Shown: positions 18,543-27,970, counted from the first letter of the stretch. The stretch is 38,028 nt of DNA from Methanomicrobiales archaeon (GCA_025350045.1 JANXYM010000015.1:1-38028), one strand, 5' to 3'. Notes: generated from the sequence alone by a model not told the origin. A program made the numbers and translations.

Positions 18543-20474
18543 ATGTTCTCTCTCCTGTATGTTGATGATGAAGAAGGACTGCTGGACCTTGGCAGGATCT
18601 ACCTTGAACGGGAGGGAGACTTCTCTGTTATCACTCACGATTCAGTGCAAAACGGACTGGCACATCTGGCATCGCATCCTGTCGATCTCATCATCTCTGA
18701 CTACCAGATGCCGGATACCGATGGCCTTGCATTCTTAAAGATCGTGCGGGAAAAATATCCCGATACCCCGTTCATTCTCTTTACCGGCCGGGGGCGCGAG
18801 GAAGTGGTGATCGAGGCGATCAATAACGGGGCGGATTTCTATCTCCAGAAAGGTGGCGATCCCAAAGCCCAGTTTGCCGAGCTCAAACACAAGATACGAA
18901 CCGCGATTGAGCGCAGGAGTGCCGTCAATGCGCTCAGGGAGTCCCAGCAGCGTCTTTCCGATATCATCGACTTCCTGCCAGATGCCACGTTTGCGATTGA
19001 TACGGGGGGACATATCATTGCCTGGAACAAGGCGATTGAGGAGATGACCGGAGTACTTGCATCCGAGGTTCTGGGTAAAGGCGACCAGGAGTATGCATTG
19101 CCGTTTTACGGCATCAGGAGACCGGGGCTGTGCGAGCTGATCTTAAAATCCCCCCGGGAGATCGATGAATACAAGTACTCTCTCATAAGCCAGGAAGGAG
19201 TAGTCCTGATCGCGGAGACCTCAGAGACCCGTCCGAGAGGAAAAATCAGCACTGTCATTGTCAAAGCTTCGCTCCTGTATGACAAAAACGGTAACATTGC
19301 CGGCGCTATTGAGTCCATCCGGGATATCACGGAAAGTAAAAAGGCAGAGTCCGAGCTTCTGGCTGCCTATGAAAAGAACAAGGGACTAATGGATTCTGCA
19401 AACGATGCTATCTTCATCGCCGATATCGAGACCGGTATGCTCATCGATGCGAACAACAAGGCACAGCAGATGATTGGGCGAACACGAGCAGAGATCCAGA
19501 AGATGCACATGGTCGAGATCCACCCGGAACGGGATAAAGAAACGTACAGCAGGTACTTTGACGAGCATGCTTCTGAAGGTTCCGGAGTACAGGAAGAAGT
19601 CATTGTCGATCGCACGGGTCGTGAGATTTCGGTCATTGTGAGCGCAACCCGGCTGGAATTTGGCGGGCGACCGTGCCTTATGGGAATTTTCCATGATGTA
19701 TCCGATATGAAAAACGCACAGGATGCGTTGCGTTTCGCCAACAAAAAACTCAACATGCTGGCCGAGGTTACCCGTCATGACATCCGGAATAAGCTCACCG
19801 TTCTCGGAGGGTACCTTGAACTGATGAGGGATCCACCCCCCGCTATGCAGTACTCCATGTATCTTTCCAAGCTCAAACAAACACTCCTGACGATCAGTGA
19901 AAATATCGAGTTTACCCAGGTATATGAAAATCTGGGTATCACACCCCCGGTGTGGCAGAATGTCCACGATCTTTTCTTCTCCACCTGTGCACAGCTCGAT
20001 ATCAAAAAGATCCGGGTGCAGTCAGATCTCAACGGGCTTGAGATCTATGCAGATCCCCTGCTGGAACGGGTCTTTTTTGACATGGTAGAAAACACCCTGT
20101 TATACGGGGCAGGTGTATCAGTTATCCGGCTGTCTTCCAGAGAAACGCCTGAGGGGATCGTCATCAGTATTGAGGACAACGGTATTGGGATTCCCCCCCA
20201 GGATAAAGAGAGGATCTTTACCAAAGGATTCGGTAAAAACACCGGCTTTGGTCTTTTTCTGGCACAGGAGATCCTCTCAATTACTGCAATTAACTTAAAA
20301 GAGACAGGAGAATATCATCAGGGTGCACGGTTCGAATTTTTTGTTCCCCGAGGCAAGTACCGTTATTCCCCCCATGCTCAGACTGATCGCTGCCATATCT
20401 TTGCCAAAGACCAGGCCTCTCCCCACTCATTCCGGGAAAAGATTTACAGCGGTCTGCAGAACAAGAAAACCTGA
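18543..20474 (+). CDS. Response-regulator/PAS-PAS histidine kinase
   Basis: A 643-residue soluble signalling protein. An N-terminal receiver (residues 1-120) has the acidic pair DDEE, phospho-acceptor Asp53 (IISDYQMPDTDG), LFTGRG and a Lys in YLQKGG. Two PAS domains follow (about 131-255 and 277-395), then the H-box VTRHDIRNKLTVL (His412) and an ATPase domain with VENTLLYG, EDNGIGIPP and GFGLFLAQEIL. The last 40 residues are a polar extension. It has no DNA-binding output. A TATA-like CTATAAAAAA lies roughly 20 nt before the ATG with no Shine-Dalgarno, so it may be leaderless. It could receive phosphate from, or act with, the related kinase at 13831-15000. Confidence 0.93.
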   Translation: MFSLLYVDDEEGLLDLGRIYLEREGDFSVITHDSVQNGLAHLASHPVDLIISDYQMPDTDGLAFLKIVREKYPDTPFILFTGRGREEVVIEAINNGADFYLQKGGDPKAQFAELKHKIRTAIERRSAVNALRESQQRLSDIIDFLPDATFAIDTGGHIIAWNKAIEEMTGVLASEVLGKGDQEYALPFYGIRRPGLCELILKSPREIDEYKYSLISQEGVVLIAETSETRPRGKISTVIVKASLLYDKNGNIAGAIESIRDITESKKAESELLAAYEKNKGLMDSANDAIFIADIETGMLIDANNKAQQMIGRTRAEIQKMHMVEIHPERDKETYSRYFDEHASEGSGVQEEVIVDRTGREISVIVSATRLEFGGRPCLMGIFHDVSDMKNAQDALRFANKKLNMLAEVTRHDIRNKLTVLGGYLELMRDPPPAMQYSMYLSKLKQTLLTISENIEFTQVYENLGITPPVWQNVHDLFFSTCAQLDIKKIRVQSDLNGLEIYADPLLERVFFDMVENTLLYGAGVSVIRLSSRETPEGIVISIEDNGIGIPPQDKERIFTKGFGKNTGFGLFLAQEILSITAINLKETGEYHQGARFEFFVPRGKYRYSPHAQTDRCHIFAKDQASPHSFREKIYSGLQNKKT

Positions 20475-22882: not shown

Positions 22883-24190
22883 ATGGAAGCACGAAGCGAG
22901 CGAAAGGACGGGGTAGTAATCTTTTTTGTATCGGGGCGGCTCGATGCATTCGGGGCCCAGCAGCTGGATACCTGGACCCGTGAGGCACTCCACGATGACG
23001 ACAAGGAACTGGTCGTGGATATGGCAGGTACGGGATACCTGAGCAGCGGGGGATTGAGGGTCTTCAATGCGCTGAAAAGGGAGATGAAGCGCAGGAACGG
23101 GCGGTTTGCGCTTGCGGCTGTCGGGGAATACCCGAAAAAAGTGCTCGACATGGCCGGTTTCTCAACAGTCTTTGATATCTTCCCGACTGCAGACCTTGCG
23201 GTTACCGATATTGCTCACAAACGCAAGAACCCCACCCTTTTCAATGAAATTTTTTACAAGAAGATCATGGGCGAGGGTGTAACGCTTACCGTGGAACCGG
23301 GCTGGATGACCACCCCTCCCGTCCTGCGGGTTCTGGGGGATCTCGACAAGGTACTCTATGCGCAGATTACCCAATCCGATATCAAAATCAGAAAGTTCTC
23401 GGAGATCACCTACTCGCTGGGGCTTGGAGCTCTCGGTGCTGATGTACAGGAGGCTATGCCCCTGATGGGTGAGATGATCACGCTCTACGGGTCAATGGTC
23501 TGGCTTCCGACCGATGGGAATAACACCCCGGATTTCTTAACCCCGCTGGATCCTGAAAGTGATGTCGGGGTCTATACCGGGTTCAATGTCTCGTTAGACG
23601 GTCCGTTCAATGAATATTTTACCCTCGAAACAAGCCTGCCGGACGGGGTGAGTATTTCTGATATCTACAAGACAATATTCTCATCCTCGCAGAACCGGGT
23701 AAAGAATTACCATGGGGTCGTTGCGGTCACCATCTGGGGCGTGCTTGCCGGGCTCTCCAGTTCCGGCCTGAAAAAATCCCCGGTAGCAGGATCAGCTCCC
23801 CCCGGGGGAGTCTCGATCATGGACCCCTCGCAGATTCACGAGTGGATCGCTTCCGACAGCGGCAATTCGCACAAAGGAGAGACCCTGGTGAGTTTCGGTA
23901 TAGGAGTTGATCTCAGCGCCGATCTCTCCTTTTTCCCCGCAGACAAGCTCTCCTCCCTGTTCTACACCAATCCTCTCAACAAAGGTGCGGCTAAAACCAT
24001 GTACCTGCACAATCACGGGGTAGTCTTCAAAAACGTTCCCTACGATGCATCGCTTGACTTAAACACACAGGTAAAAAAAATTGTAACCGATGGAGAATTT
24101 TCCGATATGCGGCACCTTCTGGACAGCACCCGGCTGAGCAAGGCCAAGATCGGCATTGCCTATATTCAGGACATAGTTAAGGAAGCCTGA
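22883..24190 (+). CDS. STAS-domain protein with large unrecognised C-terminal region
   Basis: A 435-residue protein. Residues 1-110 form a STAS domain of the anti-sigma-factor-antagonist type: the segment LVVDMAGTGYLSSGGLRVF carries the phosphorylatable Ser (Ser54/Ser55, equivalent to SpoIIAA Ser58). The remaining 310 residues or so are soluble and alpha/beta-like, with conspicuous segments TYSLGLGALGADVQ, STAS-distant YHGVVAVTIWGVLAG and MYLHNHGVVFKNV. I cannot assign them to a family. A TATA-like GAATAAAAAAC lies at about 22839-22850. The gene converges on the RsbW-like kinase gene with an 8-nt gap, and a second STAS gene is nearby. It is probably phosphorylated by the RsbW-like kinase, by analogy with Bacillus. 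Confidence 0.82.
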   Translation: MEARSERKDGVVIFFVSGRLDAFGAQQLDTWTREALHDDDKELVVDMAGTGYLSSGGLRVFNALKREMKRRNGRFALAAVGEYPKKVLDMAGFSTVFDIFPTADLAVTDIAHKRKNPTLFNEIFYKKIMGEGVTLTVEPGWMTTPPVLRVLGDLDKVLYAQITQSDIKIRKFSEITYSLGLGALGADVQEAMPLMGEMITLYGSMVWLPTDGNNTPDFLTPLDPESDVGVYTGFNVSLDGPFNEYFTLETSLPDGVSISDIYKTIFSSSQNRVKNYHGVVAVTIWGVLAGLSSSGLKKSPVAGSAPPGGVSIMDPSQIHEWIASDSGNSHKGETLVSFGIGVDLSADLSFFPADKLSSLFYTNPLNKGAAKTMYLHNHGVVFKNVPYDASLDLNTQVKKIVTDGEFSDMRHLLDSTRLSKAKIGIAYIQDIVKEA

Positions 24191-24198
24191 TTGTTTCC

Positions 24199-24615
24199 TT
24201 ACGCCTTTCTCTTTTTTACCAGCACCAGGATATTTTTCCCGTCTTCATACCGGTAGACAATGTCGTCCATGACCTGCCGGATCAAAAACACCCCCAGTCC
24301 CCCGATCTTCCGGTCCTCGATGGCATCAGTAATATCGGGTTCCGGTAGCGACAGGGGATTGAACGGCGGGGCGTTATCTTCGATCTGCACCTTGGTAAGC
24401 CCGCGGGTAGTGCAGCAGGTGACCAGGATCTTTCCTGTGCCTTGTGCATACCCGTGCATGATCACATTCGTAATTGCCTCCTCAACTGCAAGCTGGGTAT
24501 CGAGGATCTCCTCATCCGAAAACGCGTGAGCCCGCATCACCTGGTCAAGCGCAAGGGATATCTTGGGGATTGCATGGATATCGGCATCGATCGTGCAGGA
24601 AAAGGATCTCTCCAT
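24199..24615 (-). CDS. RsbW-like serine kinase (GHKL ATPase)
   Basis: A 138-residue single-domain ATPase of the RsbW/SpoIIAB anti-sigma kinase type. It shows the N-box AVEEAITNVIMHGYA (Glu, Asn), the G1-like box EDNAPPFNP, then KIGGLGVFLIRQVMD. In bacteria such kinases phosphorylate STAS proteins and sequester sigma factors. Archaea have none, so the partner here must be something else. Two STAS candidates are encoded alongside. It begins 2 nt after the stop of a short frame resembling the end of a PP2C phosphatase, so the two were probably one operon. Confidence 0.9.
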   Translation of the reverse strand: MERSFSCTIDADIHAIPKISLALDQVMRAHAFSDEEILDTQLAVEEAITNVIMHGYAQGTGKILVTCCTTRGLTKVQIEDNAPPFNPLSLPEPDITDAIEDRKIGGLGVFLIRQVMDDIVYRYEDGKNILVLVKKRKA

Positions 24616-24617
24616 CG

Positions 24618-24794
24618 CTATTTCACCCGTATAACCCTGAGGGTAATGTCGTCCGACAGCGTATAACCCCCGCAGAATATGCGCATGGATTCAGGGATCG
24701 CAGTGACGATCTCCCGCGCAGGGAGTTTCCGGGATGCACGGACACCTGTCCGCGGGAACAGGATCCGCAGGGACGAAAAGATTGTTGCATCCAT
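24618..24794 (-). pseudogene. Remnant resembling the C-terminus of a SpoIIE/RsbU-type PP2C phosphatase
   Basis: A 58-codon frame whose last 35 residues or so (AREIVTAIPESMRIFCGGYTL, then SDDITLRVIRVK) closely resemble the end of SpoIIE-type PP2C phosphatases, which finish in a GG...SDDITLxVIR pattern. The catalytic core with its metal-binding aspartates is absent; the upstream 200 nt show no continuation. It ends 2 nt before the RsbW-like gene, as an intact phosphatase gene of a partner-switching operon would. It could be a decayed gene or a short expressed protein, since it begins with an ATG and a TATA-like A/T stretch lies upstream. Confidence 0.5.
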
Positions 24795-24957
24795 AATTAT
24801 TACGATATTGTGCACGGGTCAACTTAATGGTCACGCCCTGACCGCAAAAATATTTTTACGGTTTTTACTATCAGATCCTTTCCTTTCCCCTGCAATACTG
24901 GAGTTTTTTGCCGGTACTGGTACCAATCATTACGGGATTATCGGGGAATAGCATTAT

Positions 24958-24970
24958 CTTTTAAAAACGC
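24958..24970 (+). promoter_or_regulatory. TATA box of the STAS-MBL-ABC gene group
   Basis: CTTTTAAAAACGC lies about 60 nt before the STAS start codon, so transcription would begin near 24990 and leave a leader of about 35 nt carrying the GGGGGGA ribosome-binding site. The same gap (24795-24957) also serves the minus-strand remnant; I see nothing else there. Confidence 0.45.
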
Positions 24971-25026
24971 CAAAAAAATATCAGGACTATCTCTGGAGTA
25001 AAGCACCAGAAATGGGGGGAAAAAAT

Positions 25027-25359
25027 ATGGAGATTACAACTGCAACCCGCGACGACGCAACCATTCTTTCTGTGGCCGGACGAATCGATACTGCTACTGC
25101 ACCGGCACTCGAACTGGCGATCAACAAGGCTATTGAGGGCGGAACCCGGAGGATCCTGCTCAATTTTGCCGGAGTTACCTATATCAGCAGCGGTGGCCTG
25201 CGGGTGCTGCTGGCAACCGCAAAGAAACTCAAGAATCCCGGTGACAAGTATGCCCTCTGTTCTCTGGCAGCAGAAGTGAACAAGATCTTAAAACTTGCCG
25301 GGTTCACCACCATCTTCTCTATCTATCCTTCCGAGGGCGAAGCGCTTGCCGGGTGGTAA
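25027..25359 (+). CDS. Stand-alone STAS protein (anti-sigma-factor-antagonist-like)
   Basis: A 110-residue single STAS domain. The segment RILLNFAGVTYISSGGLRVLL holds Ser54/Ser55, the position phosphorylated in SpoIIAA and RsbV, followed by KILKLAGFTTIFSIYPS, which is typical of the family's last helix. The ATG at 25027 is preferred because GGGGGGA precedes it; an in-frame ATG at 25012 is possible. Its 3' end overlaps the probable start of the MBL-fold gene, so the two are likely made together. It is expected to be a substrate of the RsbW-like kinase encoded divergently. Confidence 0.9.
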   Translation: MEITTATRDDATILSVAGRIDTATAPALELAINKAIEGGTRRILLNFAGVTYISSGGLRVLLATAKKLKNPGDKYALCSLAAEVNKILKLAGFTTIFSIYPSEGEALAGW

Positions 25360-27073
25360 CGCTTCCCTCGTTTCCCTGTCATGGCAGCCGGTACCGGGTG
25401 CCCCCGGGGCGCGGATTTACCCGCTTATTCGAAAGCTCGATACTACCTCTTCCAATGCATACCTGATCCAGACCGACGATGTCATTCTCCTCATTGACCC
25501 CGGTGGACTTGCCGAGCAGGCTGCACAGCTGGCACTGGTGATCGAAGAGTGCCGCAGGGAACATGACCGCCCGGTCTTTGTCTTTCTCACCCATGCCCAT
25601 ATCGATCATTTCCTTGGCACGCAGTGCACTCCTGCATTTGCCCATTCAAAAGCAGCAGTCTTTGCCGTACAGGAGACCGGTGCAGCAGCGCTTGAATGCG
25701 GGGACGGGAAACTGACCCAGGCTGATCTGCTGGGACAGATAATTTCACCGTTCCGGATCGGACTTCCCCTCTTAACGGATGGACGGATCGATTCCTGCGG
25801 TGTGCCGGTATCCCGTACATTCTCAAACGGCGCAACGGTCTCCATAATCCGCAAACCGGCTGCCACCGGTCTTGCACGGGAGCAGATCCGGTTTGGCTCC
25901 GGCCCAGCCCTTGATGTGTACCATACTCCCGGTCACAGCCCTGACAGCATCTGTATACAGATGGGGGGATTGTTGTTTATTGGCGATGTACTCTTTGCCG
26001 CAAACCCGGGTATCGCCGGCATATGCGGATGGGATCAGTCAGCCCTCATCCGCTCTCTCGATGGAATAGAAGCGCTCTTTGCAGACGGGGGAATTGTTTT
26101 TGTCCTGCCGGGCCACGGGCGGGTGATTGCGGCTGCTGATGCAGGGCTGATGTTTGCGGCCATCCGTGCCGATACCCTGGCACTTGAAAATATTGTCGAA
26201 CTCAACCGGGAGCGGGCGATCGAGACGGCTGCGTTTGCCGAAGACTGCATGGAACAGGTCAACGAGCTCTTCACGATCATGGCAGGACGGCTTTACTATG
26301 TCTCATATGTGCTCGAGGAACTCGGGGAAGAGGATGTGGCAGCGGAGGTCAGTCGCTTAATCAAAGGAGATGCAATCGATGAGCTCCTCGAGGCGTTCCG
26401 CTCCTTTGCTGACGAGCACCACAAGGGGAGTGGTGTTTCGATCCACCTTGCGCTCAAAGCAGGCCAGGTTATCACCAAACTCCAGCGATCGTTTGAAGGA
26501 GCAGAACTTGCGCATATCATCGATCCTGCACTTGTCCAGCGGGCAGCCCGGCTCCTCTCGGATTACACCACCATGCTCCGCGGGTTCTGCCCCCCCCGCG
26601 AACTGGAAGAGTGTGACCTGGTCCGGCACCTTGAGGCACTTGTTACCGGTCTCTCGGTTCCTGCCTGTTCGGACGATGATCTCCTCTCCTCTGAGGATGA
26701 TGATTCGACGTTCACCCGGTTACTCCTCCGCAGGATCGGTATGCAGCCCCTGCTGTCCGAGGTTGCATTCTCATTCTCTGCCGGTGAGAAACACCTTGTC
26801 GCCCCCGTCGATCACGACGATCTTACGGATCTGGTCACTTATATACTCGAAGATCTCGTAGGTATTGGCGCTGCTGCTATCGCCCTGCAGATTGCGCGTG
26901 ACGGCAACCGCGCCATCATCACTCTCACCGGGACCGGGTGCACTGATTCGGATTTTCCAAAACCGAAAGGGGGATTTCTCGGGCGACTCTGCGATCGGGC
27001 CGGAGGAACTCTCTCCTGTGCTGTTGATGGTAAAACCCGGGAGTATACGATCAGCCTTGACGGGTTGATCTGA
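25346..27073 (+). CDS. Metallo-beta-lactamase-fold protein fused to a degenerate GHKL-like domain
   Basis: About 575 residues. The N-terminal half is a complete MBL domain: THAHIDH (His83, His85, Asp87, His88), HTPGH (His197), FIGD (Asp214) and LPGHG (His257), so a two-metal site is likely. A helical region follows (about 270-400) and resembles a dimerisation segment. The last 120 residues or so look like a histidine-kinase ATPase domain by layout (LTDLVTYILEDLVGIGAAA, then FLGRLCDRAGGTLS), but the N-box Asn and the DxGxG box are missing, so ATP binding is doubtful. The start is uncertain. TTG at 25346 follows GAGGG and overlaps the STAS stop by 14 nt; no ATG or GTG is available before the domain begins. 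The substrate and role are unknown; co-expression with STAS suggests regulated hydrolase or sensing activity. Confidence 0.78.
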   Translation: MPGGNASLVSLSWQPVPGAPGARIYPLIRKLDTTSSNAYLIQTDDVILLIDPGGLAEQAAQLALVIEECRREHDRPVFVFLTHAHIDHFLGTQCTPAFAHSKAAVFAVQETGAAALECGDGKLTQADLLGQIISPFRIGLPLLTDGRIDSCGVPVSRTFSNGATVSIIRKPAATGLAREQIRFGSGPALDVYHTPGHSPDSICIQMGGLLFIGDVLFAANPGIAGICGWDQSALIRSLDGIEALFADGGIVFVLPGHGRVIAAADAGLMFAAIRADTLALENIVELNRERAIETAAFAEDCMEQVNELFTIMAGRLYYVSYVLEELGEEDVAAEVSRLIKGDAIDELLEAFRSFADEHHKGSGVSIHLALKAGQVITKLQRSFEGAELAHIIDPALVQRAARLLSDYTTMLRGFCPPRELEECDLVRHLEALVTGLSVPACSDDDLLSSEDDDSTFTRLLLRRIGMQPLLSEVAFSFSAGEKHLVAPVDHDDLTDLVTYILEDLVGIGAAAIALQIARDGNRAIITLTGTGCTDSDFPKPKGGFLGRLCDRAGGTLSCAVDGKTREYTISLDGLI

Positions 27074-27157
27074 CCCTTGCGGGAACTCCCGCTCTCTCGA
27101 CCATCATCTTACCCCATTATACCCCTCATATCGTCACTCCAAAGGGAACTATCTGAA

Positions 27158-27970
27158 ATGACCCGAAACGACTCTCCTGAAAAAAACGGTATTCCGCCGC
27201 TTCTCGAATTTCACAATGTCACGGTGATAAAAGGTGATAAGAATGTCCTAAATTCCCTGTCTGTTACTATAAGCGAGGGTGAGCACATCGCGATTCTCGG
27301 CCCCAATGGTGCCGGGAAATCCTCGTTCATCAAAGCGGTAAACCGGGAATACTACCCCCAGCCTGACGATGATGTGGTGTTCCGGATACGCGGGGAGGAG
27401 TTCTGGGATGTCTTTGCCGTGCGTGCCTTTATCGGTATTGTCTCAAACGACCTGCAGTTTGTCTATACGAGAGAGGTATCGGGCAGGGACGTGATCCTGT
27501 CCGGGTTCTTCTCCAGCATCGGGCTCTTCAACCATGCGGTGACTCCTGCAATGGAGGCAAGAACTGATGAGATCCTGACCTTCCTCGAGATCGGGCACCT
27601 GCAGGCACGCCCGATGACCGGGATGTCCTCCGGAGAAGCCCGGCGGTTCCTGATCGGCAGGGCTCTCGTGCACCGCCCGGCCGCCCTCATCCTTGATGAG
27701 CCCACCAACAGCCTTGACCTGCACGCACTTCATACCTTCCGGAACCTGATAAGAAAGATCGCACATTCCGGCACCAGCATCATCCTGGTAACGCACAACC
27801 TGCACGATATTATTCCGGAGATCGATCGCATCATTCTCATGAAGGACGGAAGGTTCACCGGCGACGGCAAAAAGAATAAGATGCTTACCGATCCAGAGAT
27901 CGGCGGATTGTTCAATGTTCCTGTTCATGTCCGGGAAGAGGACGGCTGGTATTATGCTACGGGGTACTGA
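27158..27970 (+). CDS. Soluble ABC-type ATPase (YlmA/ModF-like)
   Basis: A 270-residue ATPase with Walker A GPNGAGKSS, the Q-loop region IVSNDLQFVYTREVSGRDVI, the modified signature MSSGEARRFLIGRAL (Ser-Ser-Gly-Glu instead of LSGGQ), Walker B ALILDEPTNSLDL and the H-loop VTHNLHDI. This resembles the single-domain YlmA/ModF-type ABC proteins, which have no known permease. The ATG at 27158 is chosen; the frame is open from a TTG at 27077. The gene lies 84 nt after the MBL gene on the same strand and may belong to that transcript. No transporter membrane gene is adjacent. Confidence 0.85.
   Translation: MTRNDSPEKNGIPPLLEFHNVTVIKGDKNVLNSLSVTISEGEHIAILGPNGAGKSSFIKAVNREYYPQPDDDVVFRIRGEEFWDVFAVRAFIGIVSNDLQFVYTREVSGRDVILSGFFSSIGLFNHAVTPAMEARTDEILTFLEIGHLQARPMTGMSSGEARRFLIGRALVHRPAALILDEPTNSLDLHALHTFRNLIRKIAHSGTSIILVTHNLHDIIPEIDRIILMKDGRFTGDGKKNKMLTDPEIGGLFNVPVHVREEDGWYYATGY

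Follow-up and report, generated by a model that had tools for sequence, protein, structure and literature searches.

Bacterial partner-switching circuits act on a sigma factor, which the free kinase sequesters, and archaea have no sigma factors. Here we describe a cluster of partner-switching-type genes from an archaeon. It lies at positions 22883-27073 of a 38,028-nt stretch of DNA (the window), which is contig 19 of a 2.53-Mb Methanoregula-like metagenome-assembled genome (MAG) and has its closest relatives in Methanoregula and other Methanomicrobiales MAGs. Partner switches that do not act on sigma factors have been described in bacteria, namely BtrU/V/W of Bordetella and SypA/SypE of Vibrio fischeri (PMC8256260). 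Moreover, SpoIIAA/AB/E-like genes in the sigma-less Methanomicrobiales were published in 2009, in passages which state that their targets could not be determined from the genome (Anderson et al., PMC2686161), and they also figure in PMC3035220. The passages of the 2009 paper list Memar_2467-2469 and Mlab_1450-1452 as anti-anti-sigma, serine phosphatase and anti-sigma; these presumably belong to the same gene family as the cluster described here. The gene set and the puzzle of its occurrence without sigma factors are therefore not new. What we tentatively propose is a sigma-free partner switch in which a long STAS protein, STASlong, acts as effector in place of the sigma factor. As read from the sequences, this proposal draws on the parts present, their linkage, their active-site residues, a recurrent loss of the phosphatase, purifying selection and the association of STASlong with RsbW across genomes.

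The original prediction placed two STAS proteins, an RsbW-like kinase, a PP2C-phosphatase remnant and a fusion protein with a metallo-beta-lactamase (MBL) domain in this interval, and all five are found there. The kinase and the phosphatase stump are encoded on the minus strand, and both STAS genes and the MBL gene on the plus strand. The first four genes are as follows.

22883..24190, plus strand: STASlong, 435 aa, with a Pfam STAS match (E = 6e-16) over residues 5-104
24199..24615, minus strand: RsbW/SpoIIAB/BtrW-like GHKL serine kinase, 138 aa (HATPase_c_2, E = 2e-27)
24618..24815, minus strand: remnant of a 5TM-5TMR_LYT plus SpoIIE phosphatase, 65 aa, recognised by tblastn against the intact phosphatase of locus L015
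25012..25359, plus strand: STAS2, a single-domain protein resembling anti-sigma antagonists (STAS, E = 3.5e-20; TIGR00377 above cut-off)

Alignment to RsbW (6m36) and SpoIIAB (1th8) shows the catalytic set of the kinase to be intact (E46, N50, D80 and GGLG, covering the N, G1 and G2 boxes), and these motifs are retained in all 26 Methanoregula-type loci. The protein also shares the motif DxAPPFxPL...IGGLG of BtrW-like kinases. It appears to work like the RsbW/SpoIIAB equivalogs of NCBIfam without being a member of them. It is the only RsbW of this genome, no second RsbW-type protein of comparable strength being found there. Elsewhere, in genus g25, the RsbW domain forms the C-terminal part of proteins of 800-1020 aa encoded directly upstream of a STAS gene (L224:4259-6664 and L226:772-3840, both minus strand), one of them with a Cthe_2159-like carbohydrate-binding match. 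A Ser-Ser-Gly motif had been predicted in both STAS proteins; each in fact carries S-S-G-G, and alignment points to the second Ser as the acceptor. In STASlong this is Ser55, a putative phospho-acceptor that aligns with the corresponding Ser of TM1442 (the SpoIIAA Ser58 position), and in STAS2 it is Ser60, which aligns with Ser58 of SpoIIAA (1th8_B). Across relatives the acceptor is unchanged in both proteins (16 sequences for STASlong, 11 for STAS2). The genome encodes three STAS proteins, these two and one more (C60). That it lacks sigma factors, as had been stated at the outset, agrees with a domain search for sigma70 region 2 (Sigma70_r2), which returned no match in this genome. Matches occur in 5 of 231 genomes of the order, and 17 of them fall in one MAG (G032), where they are probably bacterial contamination.

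Fifteen relatives, together with further loci from genomes of the order, were used for comparison. Methanoregula-type loci run STASlong forward, RsbW and PP2C reverse, then STAS2, MBL and an ABC ATPase gene forward. Two other families (f4 and f5) have STAS2, PP2C, RsbW and STASlong, in that order, as a same-strand operon whose genes overlap or nearly abut in most loci; compared with this arrangement, the PP2C-RsbW pair of Methanoregula is inverted and sits between STASlong and STAS2. Other genomes carry STAS-PP2C-RsbW and STASlong at separate sites. Given that about 26 distinct Methanoregula-type loci are linked and that the operon recurs in other families, the linkage goes beyond chance. Conservation of the neighbourhood across Methanomicrobiales had been suggested as a check on the cluster, and the linkage is indeed kept across the order. 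Moreover, RsbW is present in 93 of the 100 genomes that have STASlong compared with 45 of the 131 others (Fisher p = 3e-21, relatedness not corrected for), and this co-occurrence holds even where the genes lie apart. The seven STASlong genomes without RsbW are all less than 90% complete. One locus has a 663-aa serine beta-lactamase-fold protein between STASlong and RsbW (L021:1950-3941, minus strand).

At the site of the stump, relatives carry an intact 5TM-5TMR_LYT plus SpoIIE gene of about 460 aa beside RsbW. Here, phosphatase residues 1-12 are fused in frame to residues 420-460, with about 400 codons deleted; against the intact L015 phosphatase, tblastn gives E = 0.017 for the N-terminal 12 residues and E = 2e-15 for the C-terminal 41. 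The stop codon of the stump precedes the start of RsbW by 2 nt. The PP2C-phosphatase remnant of the original prediction is thus real, and it is a 65-aa in-frame deletion stump, not a working phosphatase. Of the partner-switching module that was proposed, the parts, the intact residues and the conserved linkage hold up, and a working phosphatase of the cluster's own does not. The gene is absent or a stump in 13 of the 26 distinct Methanoregula-type loci, and intact in the other half and in other families. Other stumps retain residues 1-78 (L013/L014), pieces of both ends (L016 and L017), residues 1-46 plus about 220-240 (L049/L151) or residues 426-460 (L145). On a tree of STASlong plus RsbW the loss requires six changes, at least five of them on well-supported branches, which means five or more independent losses of the cluster phosphatase in the genus. 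Single-contig genomes (G158, G193 and G194) are among those affected and assembly breaks therefore do not explain the loss. A functional mini-protein made from the stump is unsupported, as dN and dS are nearly the same in two pairs of remnants. In several loci an open frame runs into RsbW, and this could serve translational coupling.

These losses could be taken to mean that the module is decaying here, with the phosphatase gone and the switch locked with phosphorylated STAS proteins. Such decay is suggested by the stump itself and by the losses in half of the loci, by the neutral drift of some phosphatase remnants (dN/dS near neutral in the two pairs, 0.25/0.33 and 0.11/0.09) and by a locus in which STASlong is broken into several frames, RsbW is truncated and the whole module is decaying (L067:6016-8024, genome G189). 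However, phosphatase-less lineages keep the catalytic residues and dN/dS values of about 0.05-0.3 for RsbW and the STAS genes, and other SpoIIE proteins persist in this genome, so we consider decay very improbable. The ratios are about 0.08-0.29 for RsbW and about 0.04-0.23 for STAS2 and STASlong whether or not a lineage has the cluster phosphatase, which points to purifying selection on these genes despite its loss. The SpoIIE proteins elsewhere in the genome are three in number, with 5TM-LYT, PAS-PAS and dCache-HAMP sensors, and this makes rescue in trans plausible: dephosphorylation could plausibly be carried out by at least one of them. Compensation by the orphan 5TM-LYT SpoIIE paralogue in particular was considered and dropped, as the paralogue is present both where the cluster phosphatase is retained and where it is missing, with no clear correlation.

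STASlong consists of a STAS domain (residues 1 to about 113) followed by a C-terminal domain of about 310 aa, for which Pfam gave no family match. Among 393 genomes of the phylum, 47 encode the C-terminal domain; almost all of these belong to the order, with two other families besides. The AlphaFold model of STASlong has a mean pLDDT of 67.7, with a poor core stretch at 167-233. Its best 40 Foldseek matches are exclusively STAS chains (including the SLC26 type) and chains of alpha-acetolactate decarboxylase (ALDC), the latter matching this low-confidence model with E values of 4e-5 to 8e-4, TM scores by target of 0.40-0.48 and a root-mean-square deviation (rmsd) of 9-10 Å; VIA-align rows covered the STAS part only. 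A degenerate PP2C domain was rejected as the identity of this region, since no PP2C fold appeared among the best 50 structure matches and Pfam gave no match. In common with ALDC, the domain has a block of the form GxGxxG...GEMITLxG...PTDG, which favours the relation. It also conserves an HxH (376, 378), a later His411 and the Glu197 of the GEM motif, the alignment to ALDC being unsure outside the GEM block. The HxH and the later His might together form a metal site, and the HxH and GEM motif could bind a metal or a small molecule; the HxH is missing from some divergent paralogues. However, none of 23 STASlong-type C-terminal domains matches PF03306 (ALDC), even at E 10, and the Arg of the ALDC 'VRxxPxQ' motif is seemingly not conserved. 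Profile comparison is marginal: hhalign aligned just 21-30 columns (E 0.006-0.017), and our own profile alignment reached Z 2.3-2.7 against shuffled columns, the best shuffles scoring equally high. Profile searches of the PDB with the domain returned nothing relevant, two armadillo designs looking like repeat artefacts, and a literature search found no paper joining STAS and ALDC. The domain is possibly related to the ALDC fold, and we keep this as a lead. A genuine ALDC gene (PF03306) is present elsewhere in this genome (C48:62656-63312), as it is in 167 of 232 genomes of the order.

Six loci (L060, L061, L062, L128, L131 and L132) encode STAS proteins of 780-820 aa that match the STASlong profile. 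In the four that were scanned (L060, L061, L062 and L128) the C-terminus is a TCAD9 domain (APH/RIO-like kinase); that of L128 contains HGD...DF, and its fusion lies near STAS2-PP2C-RsbW. The STAS and C-terminal domains stay together in the variants that add TCAD9, as would be expected of an output module. We borrow no function for TCAD9 from the eLife conflict-system paper, as the name is absent from its text. In two loci (L063:7079-10307 and L066:378-3734), the gene immediately downstream of a divergent STASlong paralogue without HxH encodes a HAMP-SpoIIE phosphatase.

In the switch that we propose, RsbW is predicted to bind the STAS domains of STAS2 and STASlong and to phosphorylate them at the conserved Ser, and SpoIIE-type phosphatases would reset them. 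The phosphorylation of STAS2 would set the amount of free RsbW that can hold or phosphorylate STASlong, the presumed regulated partner, and the availability of RsbW would decide whether the C-terminal domain, as effector, is active or not. In this lineage, where the cluster phosphatase has decayed, dephosphorylation would probably occur in trans through one or more of the three remaining SpoIIE proteins. Several points weigh against this proposal. The kinase falls below the curated RsbW/SpoIIAB cut-offs (62 vs 145 for NF003144, 51.5 vs 155 for TIGR01924 and 40.5 vs 135 for TIGR01925), and the relation of the C-terminal domain to ALDC is weak in sequence. All interactions and phosphorylations are steps that we infer, as are the switch's direction, the role of STASlong as output and the rescue in trans. 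Moreover, STASlong and RsbW are not neighbours in many genomes, and 45 genomes encode RsbW but no STASlong, which therefore cannot be the sole output in the order.

By analogy with RsbR-type STAS proteins, STASlong could just as well serve as an input. Its C-terminal domain would then sense a ligand, its STAS domain would compete for RsbW and the true target of RsbW would be an unlinked transcription factor or enzyme. STAS-plus-sensor architecture has a precedent in stressosomes (RsbR-type), the C-terminal domain is unlike a DNA-binding output and has motifs that may suit a small ligand or metal, and another RsbW target must exist at least in the 45 genomes without STASlong. Conversely, STASlong seldom occurs without RsbW and, in f4 and f5, is encoded by the last (3′) gene of the operon, and the kinase-like TCAD9 domain of related proteins looks effector-like. 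Sequence alone cannot separate effector from sensor, and we regard the sensor as a serious rival, albeit one that is rather unlikely.

Downstream of STAS2, the plus strand carries two further genes.

25295..27073, plus strand: MBL-fold hydrolase with a DHp/CA histidine-kinase-like tail (Lactamase_B, E = 3e-15)
27077..27970, plus strand: soluble ATP-binding cassette (ABC) ATPase without a permease (ABC_tran, E = 4e-23)

The start of the MBL gene is uncertain (about 25295) and its frame overlaps the end of STAS2. The metal site is complete (HxHxDH...H...D...H), with invariant ligands, and the modelled domain (residues 19-296) aligns to LACTB2 by VIA-align with Z 15.9 and rmsd 3.1 over 200 residues. 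The modelled tail (residues 304-590) aligns to HK853 with Z 16.3 and rmsd 4.2 over 188 residues. By eye, the ATP-binding motifs (N-box Asn and DxGxG box) are absent from the tail of the window protein and its relatives, and the model suggests a pseudokinase with a histidine-kinase fold. It could be this enzyme that is the output, RsbW or the STAS proteins gating a hydrolase by which a small signal molecule is produced or broken down. Its full metal site and a tail suited to protein contacts would fit such a role, and the gene overlaps or abuts STAS2 in Methanoregula and is also linked in f4 and f5. However, the f4/f5 gene, often close by, is on the other strand (L051, L054, L159, L162 and L164), several intact operons have no MBL gene within about 7 kb (L056, L160, L161 and L163), and the G158 locus retains RsbW and both STAS genes without one. 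This output is therefore improbable.

The ABC ATPase gene begins 3 nt past the MBL gene, the two overlap in some relatives, and they are probably co-transcribed. It is a Methanoregula-level neighbour tied to the MBL gene and stands outside the ancient operon. Of the outputs considered originally, the C-terminal region of the STAS protein is thus retained and the ABC ATPase, a genus-level neighbour running with MBL, is set aside. A few genes upstream of the cluster, the window also encodes a response regulator-PAS-PAS-histidine kinase hybrid (18543-20474, plus strand).

Taken further, the proposal would be of a partner switch re-wired in archaea, its output a STAS protein with a metal-binding, ALDC-derived domain (elsewhere also TCAD9) that is switched by RsbW and served by interchangeable phosphatases in trans; in this extended form we hold it to be doubtful. 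Returning to STASlong as effector, the analysis names a concrete target candidate, one almost confined to genomes with RsbW. As the cluster phosphatase is repeatedly discarded and the rest kept, the long-open question of the target becomes testable with four small proteins. If the proposal is true, partner switching would be a switch of general use at the protein level, with no dependence on transcription initiation factors.

With SpoIIAA/SpoIIAB/SpoIIE and RsbV/RsbW/RsbU of Bacillus the archaeal genes share the aligned phospho-Ser of the STAS proteins, a GHKL Ser-kinase with E46 and N50 and a SpoIIE-type PP2C, and archaeal relatives likewise link STAS, kinase and phosphatase in an operon. Unlike the Bacillus systems, the genome here has no sigma domain, the second STAS protein has a large extra domain, the cluster phosphatase has been lost and the kinase scores below the curated models. 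BtrU/V/W and SypA/SypE are alike in using STAS/kinase/phosphatase logic without a sigma output, whereas their outputs are type III secretion and biofilm. Compared with the 2009 account, whose passages on these genes are silent on STASlong, the MBL fusion and the loss of the phosphatase (Anderson et al., PMC2686161), what is new here is the repeated loss of the phosphatase with kinase and STAS genes kept, the conserved C-terminal domain of STASlong and the co-occurrence of STASlong with RsbW.

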